Positions 57 through 27,076 of a stretch of 36,525 nt of DNA are shown in pieces (positions within the stretch are counted from its first letter, which is position 1; every line of letters starts with the position of its first letter). The DNA comes from Candidatus Aenigmatarchaeota archaeon. GTDB taxonomy: Archaea; Aenigmatarchaeota; Aenigmatarchaeia; GW2011-AR5. The position numbers were made by a program, and so were the translations under genes. The stretch lies in the NCBI GenBank assembly GCA_016180925.1, contig JACPAH010000007.1:1-36525 (forward strand), written 5' to 3'. The notes beneath the pieces were generated by a model. The model was not told the DNA's origin and made no database searches. It saw only the letters and a program-made list of their open reading frames with translations.

Positions 57-164
57 AATGTCAAAATCCCATCAATATCTGTATCTGCAAAAAGCTGCGC
101 TTTTTGAGATCTTGAAGGAGTCGTAGACTCCTTCCAAGATAATTATGATGGGATTTTAGACATT
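57..164. repeat. Branched palindromic element, locus R1
   Basis: Outer stem AATGTC-AAAATCCCATCA (57-74) pairs with TGATGGGATTTT-A-GACATT (146-164, one bulge). It encloses hairpin AAAAAGC-TGC-GCTTTTT (89-105) and hairpin ATCTTGAAGGAGTC-GTA-GACTCCTTC-c-AAGAT (109-140). Confidence 0.85.
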
Positions 165-5669: not shown

Positions 5670-5692
5670 ATGTAGGTTAAATTAACCTACAT
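5670..5692. promoter_or_regulatory. Perfect 11-bp inverted repeat ATGTAGGTTAA-a-TTAACCTACAT
   Basis: Read directly; lies between the vapC-like stop and the gatD start. Confidence 0.6.
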
Positions 5693-10173: not shown

Positions 10174-10298
10174 ATCTGCAAAGCACCGGAAGAATGAAGT
10201 TCTTCCAAAGCTTTGGGATGTCAAAAACCTTCGGTTTCCTCAAAAGAACATAGTTCTTTTGGGATATTGAAAATCTCCAATTTTCATATATTTGCACA
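10174..10298. repeat. Palindromic hairpin element, locus R2
   Basis: GGAAGAA(10188-10194)/TTCTTCC(10200-10206), AAACC/GGTTT (10225-10237), AAAAGAAC(10242-10249)/GTTCTTTT(10253-10260), TGAAAAT(10268-10274)/ATTTTCA(10280-10286); linkers GGGATGTC, GGGATATT, GCACAT. Confidence 0.85.
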
Positions 10299-10733
10299 TT
10301 ACCAGCCGAACTCGCTGTAGAAAACGCCATTACGGATATTCTCAATTGCCTGCCTTATGTAAGGAATCGTGTTGGATGGCAGCTCGTCCACAGGAAACCA
10401 TCCTATATCGTCGCACTTGTCAGGCTCCATTATTTTCGGCATGCCATCCCATCTCTCAGCTTGTATGAAAAAGTCCGCGCGTTCATGGTCCGTCTTCCTG
10501 TGAATGACATGGACAACCCGGAGGTCTTTTTCATTAATATCGATGCCGGTCTCCTCCTTCGCTTCACGTATCATCGCCTGAAGGAAGGTTTCGTTTCCGT
10601 CAAGATGGCCGGCAGGAACGCTGTAGTTGCCGTCCATCCAACCCGTATTGAACCGCCTGGAAAGCAGAACTTTTCCTTCTTCAATCAGAATCAGGTGCGA
10701 CACAGGCACAATCATGAACCTTTCTTTCGGCAT
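10299..10733 (-). CDS. NUDIX hydrolase
   Basis: Nudix box GHLDGNETFLQAMIREAKEETGID. Confidence 0.9.
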   Translation of the reverse strand: MPKERFMIVPVSHLILIEEGKVLLSRRFNTGWMDGNYSVPAGHLDGNETFLQAMIREAKEETGIDINEKDLRVVHVIHRKTDHERADFFIQAERWDGMPKIMEPDKCDDIGWFPVDELPSNTIPYIRQAIENIRNGVFYSEFGW

Positions 10734-11903: not shown

Positions 11904-12190
11904 CAAAGATGTTATATCTCCACCAACGGAACAGAGTTCCGTTGAAGGTTTCCACATCTTTGTCATTGTGTAAAAGCCAAAGGCTTTTAACATCTCAAAA
12001 GAATTCCATTCTTTTGCAGACTCAGAAGCCTCTTTGTGATATCCTCAAAGAATAAAGTTCTTTGGGATGTCAGAAAGCTATGCTTTCTGCACATATCCTA
12101 CAACTAAATGTGCAAAAACCTTTGGTTTTTGACATCTCAGAAACATCTAGGATGTTTCTGCAGAGTTGTAGGTTTTATAGAGGCTTCTGC
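11904..12190. repeat. Large nested palindromic hairpin element, locus R3
   Basis: CAAAGATG(11904-11911)/CATCTTTG(11955-11962) around CAACGGAAC/GTTCCGTTG; TAAAAGCC/GGCTTTTA (11971-11989); AAAAGAAT/ATTCTTTT (11997-12015); outer AGAAGCCTCT(12024-12033)/AGAGGCTTCT(12179-12188) around CAAAGAA/TTCTTTG, CAGAAAGC/GCTTTCTG, and CCTACAACT(12097-12105)/AGTTGTAGG(12164-12172), which itself encloses two hairpins. Confidence 0.9.
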
Positions 12191-12203
12191 AGATAATACT
12201 TGT

Positions 12204-14441
12204 ATGGTCTTCGAATACGACTACGACGAGGAAGCGCAGAGGATAAGGATAAACTGCGTAGGCGCGATATCAGAAACCAGCGTGGAGGACTACGACCTCT
12301 GCATGGCCACGACCATAGAGAAGCTCATGGAAGTGAAGAGGCTCGTGAGGGTTGTCCTGGCCGGCTCAAGGGAGTACGAATACGACTTCAGCGAAGCCAA
12401 GCTGCTGCTCGAGATAGGGTACGCGATAGAGCGCATCATAAAGGAAAGGATAATATCCATGAAGAACGTCGCCGCCAGGGAGGACGACTTCTGGATACAG
12501 CAGCGTTACGGGTTCCTGCAGAATTTTCTCAACAGGCTGAAATACGACCCCATAGAGGCGTACAAGAGCCTCCTGAGGGAGATAAGGCACAGCAAGATAA
12601 TGAAGGAAAAGGAGCCGGATTACGCCTCAAAGATATCCTACCAGCATTATATAAACAATTCACTGGAGCCGATAAGGCAGATACTGGAAGAGTGCGAGCT
12701 CATACAGATAGCGAAGCCGCAGCTCACCGAAAACAAGAACCGCTCCCTGTACAGGAAAATATTCCACCCGACGATAAGGCCCAACTTCATCTACACGAGG
12801 TACGTATCCCTGCCTCCGCCGGACGCGGAGCTCCTGGAGAGATACAGGATGGGGGACACGGACGTGGAGATATACAGGGTCAAGGGAAAGCTCAGGAATT
12901 TGTACCACGTAATACCCCCAGAATTCCGGCTGGACGAGAACGAATACACTCTCCTCGACACGGCAAGGCGCTACCTTGGAAGGCACGAGCCGGTCGAAGG
13001 CGAACTGTCAAGGCCGGAGAACGTCAGAGAAAATCTGTACAGGATAGGGCTGGACATGATAAGGGACATCGCGAACAACAACAACATGCAGCTCAGCGAG
13101 AAGAAGCTTAGCAACCTGGCGAAGATACTGACCAGGTACACGGCCGGGCTCGGCATACTGGACCTCATACTGCAGGACGACAAGATACAGGACATAGCGG
13201 TCAATTCGCCGGTGGGGACATCACCGGTCTACATATACCATGCCGACTACCACGAGTGCGAAACCAATATCGTGCCGAGCCAGGAGGACGCCGAATCATG
13301 GGCCACGAGATTCAGGCTGAGCAGCGGCAGGCCGTTTGACGAGGCCAATCCAGTTCTCGATACGGAGCTCGAAGTTCCGGGGGGCCGCGCCAGGGTGGCT
13401 GCGATAACAAGAACTCTCTCGCCAGACGGCCTCGGCTTCGCATTCAGGCGCCACAGGGACAAGCCGTGGACATTCCCCCTCTTCATAAAAAACCGGATGA
13501 TAGACTCGTTTTCTGCCGGGCTCCTGTGGTTCCTGATAGACGGCTCCAGGACGATGCTGATAGCAGGGACCAGGTCAAGCGGCAAGACGTCGTTTCTGTC
13601 GTCGTGCATCGTCCAGATAATGCCGAAAATCAGAATCGTTTCATTAGAAGACACGCTGGAAATCCCGGTGCCGCAGCTGCGGGAGCTGGGTTACAACATA
13701 GAGAGACTCAAGTCAAGAAGCGTGATAACCAACGTCGAGACAGAGCTGCCGGCCGAGGAAGGGTTGAGAACGGCGCTCCGTCTCGGGGACTCCTCGCTGA
13801 TAGTAGGCGAAGTGAGAAGCAGGGAGGCGATAGCGCTGTACGAGGCAATGAGGATAGGCGCCCTGGCAAACCTTGTGGCAGGCACCATCCATGGGGAGAG
13901 CGCTTACGGAGTCTTCGACCGTGTAGTGAATGACCTCGGCGTGCCGCCGACCAGCTTCAAGGCCACCGACATAGTCGTCGTGAACAACATGATAAGGTCG
14001 CCAGACGGGCTCCACTCCTTCAGGAGGACGGTCGAGCTGACGGAGATAAGGAAGCACTGGTCAAGCGACCCCGTGAAGGAGGGAGGATTCGTGAACCTTC
14101 TGGAATATTCGGCAAAGGAGGACAAGCTCAAGCCCACGAAGACCCTGCTCACCGGAGAGTCGGAGATAATAAACGACATAATGTCGAGGGTCAGGGAGTG
14201 GAGGGGGAACTGGGACGCCGTATGGGAGAACATAACCATGAGGCAGAAGATACTTCAGTCCCTTGTGGACTATTCGGACGCTTACAAGAGGCCTGACATC
14301 ATGGAAGCCCCGTCCGTGATAGAGTCCAACTCCATGTTCCACATAGCGAGCGCCGATATCAAGGAAGAAACCGGCTCCATAGACAACAAGCTCGTATACG
14401 AAAGGTGGCACGACTGGCTCGAAAAAAAGGTCAGGCAGTGA
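12204..14441 (+). CDS. Type II/IV secretion system ATPase (archaeal T4P/Tad/GspE-like); ORF open upstream to 12108
   Basis: Walker A MLIAGTRSSGKTSFLSS; SLIVGEVRSREAIALYEAMRIGA Walker B region. Confidence 0.9.
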   Translation: MVFEYDYDEEAQRIRINCVGAISETSVEDYDLCMATTIEKLMEVKRLVRVVLAGSREYEYDFSEAKLLLEIGYAIERIIKERIISMKNVAAREDDFWIQQRYGFLQNFLNRLKYDPIEAYKSLLREIRHSKIMKEKEPDYASKISYQHYINNSLEPIRQILEECELIQIAKPQLTENKNRSLYRKIFHPTIRPNFIYTRYVSLPPPDAELLERYRMGDTDVEIYRVKGKLRNLYHVIPPEFRLDENEYTLLDTARRYLGRHEPVEGELSRPENVRENLYRIGLDMIRDIANNNNMQLSEKKLSNLAKILTRYTAGLGILDLILQDDKIQDIAVNSPVGTSPVYIYHADYHECETNIVPSQEDAESWATRFRLSSGRPFDEANPVLDTELEVPGGRARVAAITRTLSPDGLGFAFRRHRDKPWTFPLFIKNRMIDSFSAGLLWFLIDGSRTMLIAGTRSSGKTSFLSSCIVQIMPKIRIVSLEDTLEIPVPQLRELGYNIERLKSRSVITNVETELPAEEGLRTALRLGDSSLIVGEVRSREAIALYEAMRIGALANLVAGTIHGESAYGVFDRVVNDLGVPPTSFKATDIVVVNNMIRSPDGLHSFRRTVELTEIRKHWSSDPVKEGGFVNLLEYSAKEDKLKPTKTLLTGESEIINDIMSRVREWRGNWDAVWENITMRQKILQSLVDYSDAYKRPDIMEAPSVIESNSMFHIASADIKEETGSIDNKLVYERWHDWLEKKVRQ

Positions 14442-14447
14442 CGTAGA

Positions 14448-16403
14448 ATGGAAGACAAAGAGAGAGCCGCCAGGATAAAAAAAATAATATCAAGGGAATA
14501 CAGGATATACAAGGAAGAGGAGGAAATATCCTCGCTTCCAAGGACCTTGTACGAGAAAGCGTGCAGGATATCGGCGGCGCTCCTCAACCTGAAGCCGGAC
14601 GCCAGGACCAGGAAGAAGCTAGAGGAAGTAATAGAATTCTCGCACCTCAAGATAACGCCAGCCGGCGTCTCGTCCCTCACGATACTGTTTGCACTTCTCA
14701 CCACGATACCGACAACGCTCCTGATAATACTGTCGCTCTTCACCCCGTTCAGCGTGCTGCCGTTCGGGTACGGGATGCTTCTCATGCTGATGTCGCTGTT
14801 CTTCGTGATATACCTCTACAACTACCCGTTCTTCCTGAAGAGAAGATACGAGTCGGAGGTGAGTTCGGAAATAGTGACGATGATACTCTACATGGCGATG
14901 TACATGAGGAACACCCCCAACCTTGAAGGCGCCGTGAAATTCGCGGCCGACAACCTGTCAGGCCCGATAGGGCTGGAGCTCAAGAAGATGCTGTGGGACG
15001 TTGAGGTCGGCAACTTCTTCTCCATGCAGGCGGCGCTCCTGGATTACACCGAGAAATGGGCGAAGAACAGGGAGTTCGTGGAGGCCGTGGAGCTGCTTAT
15101 AACGTCAATGAAGCAGATCGGCGAGAAGCGCTTAACGCTCCTGGACGAGACGGTGAATATAGTCTTGGAGGGCAACAGGGAAAGGGCAAAGCACTTCAAC
15201 CAGAAGCTGAAGCTGCCTGTCATGGTCGTGCACGCCCTCGGAGTAATACTTCCCGTGATGGGCCTCGTGCTCTTTCCGGTCATATCCGTCTTCCTGGGAA
15301 TAGAGTCGGCGGTTCTTTTCGTCATATACGACGTGCTGCTGCCGCTGATACTCTACTTCGTCATAATGCGGATATCGGAGCTGAGGCCGGCGACGTTCAG
15401 CAAAATCGACATCTCCGAGAATCCGGATGTGCCGCCGATGGGGAAGATAAAGCTCGGCGGCAGGCTGGTTTCGGCGTGGCCTATAGCAATGCTGAGCGCG
15501 ATACCCTTCATAGGGCTTGGTCTCTTCATAAAACAGTTCGAGAGCGAGGGAATAATAGCGGGACTCCTGATACTGTTCGGCGTGGCGTTCTCCATATCAA
15601 TATACAACATACTCCTCTCCAGGAAGAGGCTCGAGGTCAGGGACAAGACGAGGAAGATAGAAGGCGAATTCGCCGAGGCTTTATTCCAGATGGGGAACCA
15701 GGTGTCATCTGGAAAGCCGATAGAGATATCGATAAAGAATTCCATGGAGCGCATCAACAACCTCGAGATAAAGAACTTCTTCGACAAGGCGCTGAACAAC
15801 ATAAAGTCGCTCGGCATGACATTCCAGCAGGCGTTCTTTGACAAGGACTTCGGCGCGATAAGGCTCTACCCGTCGAGGCTCATAAAGAACATCATGAGGA
15901 CGGTGGTGGAGTCGAGCAAGAAGGGCGTCAACGTGGCGTCCAACGCCATGCTGTCGGTCTCCAGGTACCTGAAGGGCATCCACTCGACGCAGGAAGAGGT
16001 GAGGGAGGAGCTCAGTGAGACTGTCAATTCGCTGAAGTTCCAGCTCTATTTCCTGTCGCCCATGATATCCGGCATAGTCGTGACGCTGGCCATAATAATA
16101 ATAAGGATACTGAAGTCCCTGTCCAACAGCCTCGGCGACTTCCAGAGCGTGCAGGTCCCGCTCATAAGCCAGTTCGCCAACATCACCGTGACGCCCTTTC
16201 AATTTATAATAGTCGTTGGCACATATATCATAGAAACATGCGTAATCATATCGATATTCATAAACAACATAGAGAACGGCGACGACCCGATAGGGCGCAT
16301 GCACACGACCGGATACTCGCTGCTGATAGGGTTCATCATGTTCACCGTATTCACCATGATAACGCTGATGGTGTTCGGGCCGCTCATAACGACGCTGGTG
16401 TGA
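14448..16403 (+). CDS. Type II secretion system F domain (TadC/FlaJ-like) membrane platform protein
   Basis: 651 aa, duplicated TM-cytoplasmic arrangement, immediately downstream of the ATPase. Confidence 0.85.
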   Translation: MEDKERAARIKKIISREYRIYKEEEEISSLPRTLYEKACRISAALLNLKPDARTRKKLEEVIEFSHLKITPAGVSSLTILFALLTTIPTTLLIILSLFTPFSVLPFGYGMLLMLMSLFFVIYLYNYPFFLKRRYESEVSSEIVTMILYMAMYMRNTPNLEGAVKFAADNLSGPIGLELKKMLWDVEVGNFFSMQAALLDYTEKWAKNREFVEAVELLITSMKQIGEKRLTLLDETVNIVLEGNRERAKHFNQKLKLPVMVVHALGVILPVMGLVLFPVISVFLGIESAVLFVIYDVLLPLILYFVIMRISELRPATFSKIDISENPDVPPMGKIKLGGRLVSAWPIAMLSAIPFIGLGLFIKQFESEGIIAGLLILFGVAFSISIYNILLSRKRLEVRDKTRKIEGEFAEALFQMGNQVSSGKPIEISIKNSMERINNLEIKNFFDKALNNIKSLGMTFQQAFFDKDFGAIRLYPSRLIKNIMRTVVESSKKGVNVASNAMLSVSRYLKGIHSTQEEVREELSETVNSLKFQLYFLSPMISGIVVTLAIIIIRILKSLSNSLGDFQSVQVPLISQFANITVTPFQFIIVVGTYIIETCVIISIFINNIENGDDPIGRMHTTGYSLLIGFIMFTVFTMITLMVFGPLITTLV

Positions 16404-16407
16404 CGAC

Positions 16408-16662
16408 ATGAAGATGTGCAAATGTATGAAAACCAGAGGTTTTCAACATCCCAAAGGAATCTCGGACGTGATGCTGTGGACCATGATAGGGCTTGCATTG
16501 GCCCTGATCGCACTGGCGATACTTGCATCGATAGCAGGGAGCCAGACGACTCTGGTGAAGAACGACATAGAGATACAGCGCGAAAGCGTTTACACAATGC
16601 CCGTATACGGACCGTGCCATGACTACGAGGAGGCCGACTTTTCATGGAAAGTCTTGAGATGA
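16408..16662 (+). CDS. Prepilin-like small protein with repeat-derived leader
   Basis: MKMCKCMKTRGFQHPKGISDVMLWTMIGLALALIALAILASIAG: basic leader, KG, hydrophobic helix. Confidence 0.7.
   Translation: MKMCKCMKTRGFQHPKGISDVMLWTMIGLALALIALAILASIAGSQTTLVKNDIEIQRESVYTMPVYGPCHDYEEADFSWKVLR
16411..16455. repeat. Single palindromic unit, locus R4, inside the coding start of the prepilin-like gene
   Basis: GATGTGCAAATGTA-TGAAAACC-AGA-GGTTTTCA-ACATCCC; 8-bp stem 16427-16434/16438-16445. Confidence 0.8.
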
Positions 16663-25365: not shown

Positions 25366-25722
25366 ATGGACATTTTCCTTTCGAAAGACGAGAAGATGGA
25401 AAAGCTGGAGAAAAAGCTCAATTCCCTGGAGAAGAGCACCGAAAGGAGGCTTGACAGGAGCGACGAGAGCTTCAGGTTCTTCAAAACCGTCATCATGCAG
25501 ATGCAGAAAGACAATGCAAAGCTGAAGAAAGACAGGGACTATCTTTTCACTTCGTACAGCAGGCTGCTTGACAGGCTTTACGACTCGGCTCTGTCGGACG
25601 AGCTGCGGAACCTGATAGAGCCCATGAGGAAAGGCCTGAAGGAGAACTTCAATTTCATACAGCAGGTCGCAAAGGAAGGCCTGGTGGAAAAGAAAAGGAA
25701 GCGAGCTACTTCCCCCTCTTGA
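25366..25722 (+). CDS. Cytoplasmic coiled-coil protein
   Basis: MDIFLSKDEKMEKLEKKLNSLEKSTERRLDRSDE; heptad-rich. Confidence 0.65.
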   Translation: MDIFLSKDEKMEKLEKKLNSLEKSTERRLDRSDESFRFFKTVIMQMQKDNAKLKKDRDYLFTSYSRLLDRLYDSALSDELRNLIEPMRKGLKENFNFIQQVAKEGLVEKKRKRATSPS

Positions 25723-27076
25723 AGTCGTACAGAAATTCATCCTTCTTCTTTTTGGGCGGCTTCTGCTGTTTTGGCTGCGTCCATCCCTTTTCCGGATGGT
25801 ATCCGGCCGCGGAGCCCTGGGGCCAGAACAGGTATGCGAGAACCCCGACGATGCCGACGCCAGCGACGCCGGCAATAATGTAGACAGGGTCGACATTAAT
25901 GCCCAGGCCGCACGTGCCAGGCGCCGTGTTCAGTATCTTCTGGTTGAGCTCGTCAAGGCCTTTCGTGACCTCCTCGATAAGGGTGTTTGCCCTGACGTAG
26001 TCCTTGGCATCCAGGTACTCCTGGATTTTCTTCATCTTTTCCCTTATCTCGTCCCGGTTGCTTTCAAGGATCTTTACGTCTGTGCACGTCTCCCCAAGGC
26101 CCTCCACCTTTTTCTCAAGTTCGGAAAGCCTGGAAGACGCGTTGTTGTAATTGGGAATGATTTCTCTCTGCACCGTCTCCTCGGTCGGGATGACAAATAC
26201 CTTGAAGCCCGCCGAGGTTGACACGGAAGAGTTGCCCGTAGCAACGTTCGCCGTCACGTCATAAACCTTGGCTGTCGCATCCGAGGGGATTATAAATTCC
26301 ATCCCGAAGGTCGCATTGGCATTTATCGTTATGTTGACCCTGTCCGGCCCTATGCTCACCCACGACGCTTCAATTCCGGAGACGCTCACGGAGACATTGA
26401 AGAGTGTCCTGTTCCCTGTATTCTTTATTATAATGGTTTTCAGCGCCTTTGTCCCCTGGGTTATGTTGAAGTCCGAAGGCGACGACAGGACGCTTATTTT
26501 CTGGTTGAAGTCGCCGGCGCTTGAGGACGAGCCGCCGCTGGACGACGAGCTTGACGAGGATGTCGAAGAGGAACACGCGCCGGCAGAGCATGTATTGTTG
26601 CTGGAGCATGAAGTGGACGAGCCCCACGTACCGGAAGAGCATGTGCGATAGCTCGTTGAAGTGTCACATTCTGAGGAGCCTGTCGCAGTCGCCGTGCCGT
26701 TGTGGTAGCATGAGGTGATGGAAGTGAGGTTGCACCATCCGGCCCTGCCGCCCCCGCCCGTGCCATCCCAGTCAGTGAAGCACGCATAGCCGAAGCACTC
26801 GTATCCTGCGTTGCAGTAATCCACCGTATAGGCATAGATTCCGGTGACGATTGACACGTTGGATGTGCCCAGATTAAGCTGGCCGCCCGTTTCCGCAAGC
26901 GACGCGGCGGAAACCGCTGTCACTATTAGAGCCAGGCTGAAGAGAAGCTTCGCTTCTCTGCGTAGACATTCAATAATGTCTCCGAGATGCCAAAAACTCA
27001 GCGTTTTTGTGCATTTGAGATTCTGAAAAGTCCTGCTTTTCAAGAACATTCCATAATTCATCAGTATCACTATCAT
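25706..27076 (-). CDS. Surface protein: signal peptide, Ser-rich linker, Ig-like/NEW3-type domain, C-terminal TM
   Basis: KLLFSLALIVTAVSA; SSSTSSSSSSSSGGSSSS; FNITQGTKALKTIIIKNTGNRTLFNVSVSVSG; IIAGVAGVGIVGVLAYLFWP. Confidence 0.75.
   Translation of the reverse strand: MIVILMNYGMFLKSRTFQNLKCTKTLSFWHLGDIIECLRREAKLLFSLALIVTAVSAASLAETGGQLNLGTSNVSIVTGIYAYTVDYCNAGYECFGYACFTDWDGTGGGGRAGWCNLTSITSCYHNGTATATGSSECDTSTSYRTCSSGTWGSSTSCSSNNTCSAGACSSSTSSSSSSSSGGSSSSAGDFNQKISVLSSPSDFNITQGTKALKTIIIKNTGNRTLFNVSVSVSGIEASWVSIGPDRVNITINANATFGMEFIIPSDATAKVYDVTANVATGNSSVSTSAGFKVFVIPTEETVQREIIPNYNNASSRLSELEKKVEGLGETCTDVKILESNRDEIREKMKKIQEYLDAKDYVRANTLIEEVTKGLDELNQKILNTAPGTCGLGINVDPVYIIAGVAGVGIVGVLAYLFWPQGSAAGYHPEKGWTQPKQQKPPKKKKDEFLYDFKRGK
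26941..27044. repeat. Palindromic hairpin element, locus R5, inside the 5' coding region of the surface-protein ORF
   Basis: AGAGAAGC-TTC-GCTTCTCT (26941-26959), AGACATT-CAAT-AATGTCT (26964-26981), CAAAAAC-TCAGC-GTTTTTG (26991-27009), TGAAAAG-TCCTG-CTTTTCA (27024-27042); linkers GAGATGCC, GTGCAT. Confidence 0.85.

Follow-up and report, generated by a model that had tools for sequence, protein, structure and literature searches.

A dispersed palindromic repeat within the leader codons of a prepilin-like gene in an Aenigmatarchaeota archaeon

MITEs are short, non-coding, multicopy elements with terminal inverted repeats, and class III signal peptides are the archaeal leaders of type IV pilins and archaellins. 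The Rickettsia palindromic elements (RPE; Ogata et al. 2000, 2002) are palindromes dispersed through a reduced genome and occur in frame in genes that are unrelated to one another and have palindrome-free orthologs (PMC10969869, PMC3733652). In-frame coding palindromes have been discussed as a speciality of Rickettsia, and the same behaviour is now seen in a DPANN archaeon. A partial literature search returned nothing on coding palindromes in archaea or on MITEs in DPANN genomes, which is weak evidence of novelty. The window analysed here is a stretch of 36,525 nucleotides from a Candidatus Aenigmatarchaeota draft genome (81% complete, 41 contigs), in which a prepilin-like gene contains one copy of such a repeat.

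The leader of the prepilin-like gene

The features of the locus are given below; R1 is a covariance model of the 34-nt repeat hairpin, built from 11 hand-picked training copies, the prepilin copy among them.

14448..16403, + strand: TadC-like membrane protein, the synteny anchor upstream of the prepilin gene; named from context, with no Pfam hit
16408..16662, + strand: prepilin-like gene, an ORF of 84 aa with a class III-type leader, MKMCKCMKTRGFQHPKG/ISDVMLWTMIGLALALI
16408..16413, + strand: likely native start ATGAAG, kept from the pre-insertion state; the identical ATGAAG joins GGAATA in the same-genus genome G001
16414..16455, + strand: inserted palindromic unit of 42 nt, or 14 in-frame codons; R1 hit at 16422-16455, orthologs without the unit
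16422..16449, + strand: hairpin ATGT-a-TGAAAACC aga GGTTTTCA-ACAT, based on covariation counts and the fold
16456..16458, + strand: GGA codon, the conserved Gly of the predicted KG/ prepilin-peptidase site; K-G is kept in the orthologs of G001, G015 and G017

Translation of 16408-16662 begins MKMCKCMKTRGFQHPKGISDVMLWTMIGLALALIALAILASIAGSQ..., and the gene is laid out as ATGAAG, the 42-nt palindromic unit (14 codons, MCKCMKTRGFQHPK) and the GGA of the KG motif. The repeat proper, ATGTGCAAATGTATGAAAACCAGAGGTTTTCAACATCCCAAA, begins with ATGTGC and contains in-frame ATGs at 16414 and 16426. Its hairpin has an 8-bp stem and ATGT/ACAT outer arms with one bulge. No pilin model was matched in a Pfam search of the protein; the class III signal feature, a K/R-G ahead of a hydrophobic core, is present and is conserved across the prepilin orthologs.

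The same-genus comparison consists of one other genome, G001. The TadC-like protein is 85% identical there and present in 96 of 99 relatives, and the G001 prepilin ortholog lies directly 3' of the TadC-like gene, as it does here. This ortholog is an empty form, ATGAAG/GGAATA (MKG...; start region ATGAAGGGAATA), in which the unit is absent, and the locus after the TadC-like gene reads TAATATGAAGGGAATAACAAAA..., MKGITKMQIAIVAALLMALVVLVILIAITGNQ. The corresponding prepilin starts are MSKGMSKWLLWTAMGLLL in G015 and MQKKGLTNDTLWLVLGL in G017, so that outside G001 the leaders of the alignable orthologs are 4-5 residues long, MSKG and MQKKG. BLASTP aligns the two same-genus prepilins from KG through the hydrophobic core (E 2e-8), and global alignments place 12-14 extra residues of the repeat-bearing protein ahead of KG. 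Since the orthologs lack the unit and the extra residues precede KG, the unit is read as inserted after ATGAAG and ahead of GGA. The evidence for this exact point is a match of 6+4 bases, because there is one same-genus genome and identity to its prepilin is no more than 36%, over 47 residues. The exact right edge of the unit could shift by a few bases, as the junction, AAAGGAAT, is also a plausible left arm of a second hairpin; a comparable second-hairpin arm is found at G000:C33, CCCAAAGGAATTC.

The sequence-only reading of this locus had described a palindromic unit at 16408-16470 that provides the start codon and leader of the gene. Its reading frame for 16408-16662, and the peptide it read from the antisense of a copy elsewhere in the window (MCKYMKIGDFQYPKRTMFF, 10299-10243), agree with translation. 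A palindromic repeat is indeed present and does not arise by chance, with an R1 match at 16422-16455 among the top three genome-wide (53.4 bits, E 3.5e-8), and starts at 16414 rather than at 16408. Provision of the start codon by the repeat is not borne out, as the empty ortholog has ATGAAG too. The 8-bp hairpin was likewise thought to overlap the start site; in the fold it begins at +15 from ATG 16408 and is therefore clear of this likeliest start codon. As the native ATG is retained and GGTG lies seven bases upstream of it, the palindromic unit need not supply the prepilin start, and from the sequence it appears to give 14 leader codons and not the start codon.

The palindromic repeat family

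The 11 hand-picked hairpin copies align without gaps, 97% of their pair cells are standard pairs, and 8 of the 12 pairs have two-sided changes compared with a mean of 2.9 in shuffles. In 84 distinct matched rows, an alignment that was fitted to R1 and hence leans towards the model, 96.7% of cells are paired and two-sided changes occur in 9 of 12 pairs; sliding the partners destroys the signal. A search of the genome with R1 gives 115 hits at E<=10, and the 84 hits at E<0.02 represent 83 hairpins in 55 clusters; copies in this genome were read from the stretches around such hits. For the most part they are scattered, with no relation between the genes around them; many are intergenic, and both strands carry them. 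Within the taxonomic family of the archaeon, G001, G005, G009 and G014 have 73-84 hits each at E<=1, G004 has 41 and G007 none. At E<=0.001, hits among the 99 relatives are restricted to this family and to four genomes from another two families in its order; of the 68 other genomes in the class, 66 are without a hit and two have one each. The hairpin is thus nearly confined to one order of Aenigmatarchaeota.

Full-length copies measure 146-168 bp and consist of joined hairpins, several with inverted ends TATAGTG/CACTATA (also written TATAGTGAASCAAATAAA); 12 matches to these ends were located, and the flanks of the full-length copies inspected have no clear target-site duplication. In one full-length element (L107, G000:C12:23176) the left end is partly duplicated, and the element apparently lies directly after a tRNA-like 3' end. 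A search of the window against Rfam returned a single tRNA and no known RNA family for the repeat. The remaining copies in the window, and the secretion ATPase gene beside one of them, are as follows.

83..134, + strand: repeat copy close to the window's left edge; R1 hit at 83-116
10188..10299, - strand: hairpins directly 3' of the stop codon of a NUDIX gene, called R2 in the sequence-only reading; R1 hits at 10212-10245 and 10258-10291
11924..12165, both strands: repeat hairpin cluster upstream of the secretion ATPase; R1 hits at 11966-11999 (+), 12061-12094 (-) and 12108-12141 (+)
12204..14441, + strand: type II/IV secretion ATPase, true start at 12204; T2SSE PF00437, E 2e-15
26951..27043, - strand: second insertion into coding sequence, a multi-hairpin repeat of about 31 codons in a signal-peptide n-region; R1 hit at 26981-27014

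Repeat-derived ATGs can mislead gene calling: the ATG at 12108, in the copy at 12108-12141, adds 32 codons to the ORF of the secretion ATPase. This start was rejected, the G001 ortholog beginning with MVFEYEYDEDAQ, the equivalent of 12204. A perfect 10-bp hairpin at 5670-5692, ATGTAGGTTAAATTAACCTACAT, is of a type distinct from the repeat family.

Repeat copies in other genes and at proposed start sites

The prepilin gene is one of several cases within a single genome, together with a signal-peptide protein, GatB, Pelota and enolase, in which the repeat and coding sequence can be compared. The insertion at 26951-27043 is in frame within the gene at 25706-27076 (-), the N-terminus of the G001 ortholog is MKYEVMLLIFIVFSATAFAETGGQ without the repeat, and the family orthologs among the matches listed align only from about query residue 41 on. 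GatB contains a 57-nt insert of 19 codons with two hairpins, ILEKQSFSGSQRSAASLQT (L123, 801-834 (-), G000:C16:11000). GatB of 14 other family genomes, which are all the alignable ones, has DANIS, a short loop and RVEIKN without the insert; removal of the 57-nt copy gives exactly the G002 length, and both flanks align to solved GatB chains and to Pfam GatB_N. An adenylate-kinase-like ORF in G001 (L217, G001:C32:2696) has a repeat-derived N-terminus, MNILKKQSFLGSQRSETPLQIIIMGPQGSGKG, which matches the GatB insert in element type and frame. All three of the element's frames are in use, one in the prepilin and signal-peptide copies, one in Pelota and an HD-hydrolase and one in GatB and the adenylate kinase, and a single conserved peptide of the RPE kind was rejected on this basis.

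Start-codon supply by the repeat is better supported at Pelota, enolase, a glycosyltransferase and others than at the prepilin gene. The proposed start of Pelota, TTG AGG, lies where a repeat hairpin ends, at the point where four relatives begin ATG AAG, and the proposed N-terminus of enolase, MFLQSCG-HAREVLDSRG, lies within the repeat while relatives have ordinary starts, e.g. MTKIKSLHAREVLDSRG. A hairpin subtype, CAAAGGAGGnnnCTCCTTTGAAGAT, pairs an arm containing GGAGG with an arm containing CTCCTTTGAAGAT and occurs in five copies across the two genus members. All five of these GGAGG...TTG hairpins end exactly where a long ORF has its TTG start (L260, L262, L264, L265, L266). In the glycosyltransferase, the TTG after the GGAGG hairpin is at the Met position of the orthologs (relatives MRIAMFTDTY...), and at Pelota a variant of this hairpin places the proposed start likewise at the native Met position. 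The family might, we tentatively suggest, act as a portable translation-initiation module, in which CAAAGGAGGnnnCTCCTTTGAAGAT brings a Shine-Dalgarno GGAGG and a TTG that replace native starts and other copies enter cleavable leaders.

Origin of the prepilin insertion and comparison with known systems

We consider it very probable that a MITE-like palindrome was inserted in frame, as 42 nt, into the n-region of the prepilin leader, that the native ATG serves as start and that the insert is discarded with the leader. The palindromic element would have been transposed or copied into the leader between the native ATGAAG and the KG glycine, and translation would most likely begin at ATG 16408 and read through the palindrome, the in-frame length being kept by selection. 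Prepilin peptidase is predicted to cut after KG, such that the inserted peptide would be lost while the mature pilin-like subunit would remain unchanged; because the peptidase would remove the insert together with the leader, the cost of the insertion would be low and, we infer, nearly neutral. Cleavable N-terminal signals may hence be a tolerant landing site for the repeat, and the same tolerance may hold for the signal-peptide n-region, the variable loop of GatB and the regions around start codons. The earlier proposal that the leader was captured from a mobile palindrome holds as regards repeat origin, in that most of the leader, 14 codons, derives from a dispersed palindrome with MITE-like full-length relatives. 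The direction is to be reversed: the leader was there first, the palindrome entered it, and neither the native start nor the KG processing motif was displaced. The orthologs compared lack the repeat, and none has the same leader without palindromic DNA.

A start within the repeat itself, at ATG 16414 or 16426, with ATGAAG 16408 unused, is an unlikely alternative for the prepilin gene. Both ATGs are in frame and repeat-internal starts are proposed elsewhere, at the Pelota TTG, the enolase ATG and the GGAGG...TTG of five long ORFs, but ATGAAG 16408 is identical to the sequence with which the repeat-free ortholog begins and follows GGTG at a distance of seven bases, whereas ATG 16414 is farther from GGTG and ATG 16426 is within the hairpin stem. 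It is also rather improbable that the unit, instead of being a passenger, is under selection as an RNA hairpin that regulates how the pilin operon is translated. A perfect 12-bp hairpin at +15 to +42, just within the ORF, and strong covariation throughout the family would be consistent with such a role; however, the scatter of most copies at unrelated genes, between genes and on both strands argues against it, the same-genus ortholog does without the unit, and shuffled sequences fold as well as the whole prepilin start region does (z 0.19). That the ORF is decayed or mis-called, with the true protein beginning after the repeat or the gene being a pseudogene, seems very doubtful. The repeat-derived extension of the ATPase at 12108 is spurious and sets a precedent, but here the sole in-frame start before KG other than those on the repeat side is ATG 16408, which itself reads through the repeat. 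Moreover, KG and the hydrophobic core are conserved with G001 and G015, and downstream codon usage is coding-like at 0.57 bits per codon. Copies of the family lie both in conserved enzymes and in leaders predicted to be cut off. This suggests that short selfish DNA has a recurrent way of contributing peptide segments, and even starts, to proteins.

The prepilin-like protein resembles class III systems in its charged n-region, its KG/ motif and its hydrophobic stretch of roughly 20 residues, and its gene lies near those of a T2SSE ATPase and a TadC-like protein; its leader differs in having 17 residues, 14 of them repeat-derived, compared with 3-5 in the orthologs. The repeat family is similar to MITEs in being non-coding, multicopy and <200 bp, with TATAGTG/CACTATA ends in full-length copies, but is built of several nested hairpins. 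With the REP elements of the REP/RAYT system it shares palindromes of 20-40 nt, high copy number and clusters of alternating orientation; in contrast to REP elements it has intragenic copies, and a GTAG-type end tag was found in none of the copies inspected. The CGTC end tag of the RPE superfamily was likewise found in none of the copies inspected. The archaeal family further differs from RPE in its host, in its modular hairpins of 34-42 nt, single or joined to about 146-168 bp, and in the use of three frames with no single conserved peptide, several cases being at N-terminal leaders or starts. Like RPE, it is a multicopy dispersed palindrome that lies in frame in ORFs with repeat-free orthologs, as in the prepilin, the signal-peptide protein and GatB. 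Kinship to RPE is not implied by this likeness, but of the systems compared here RPE come closest to the archaeal family in behaviour.
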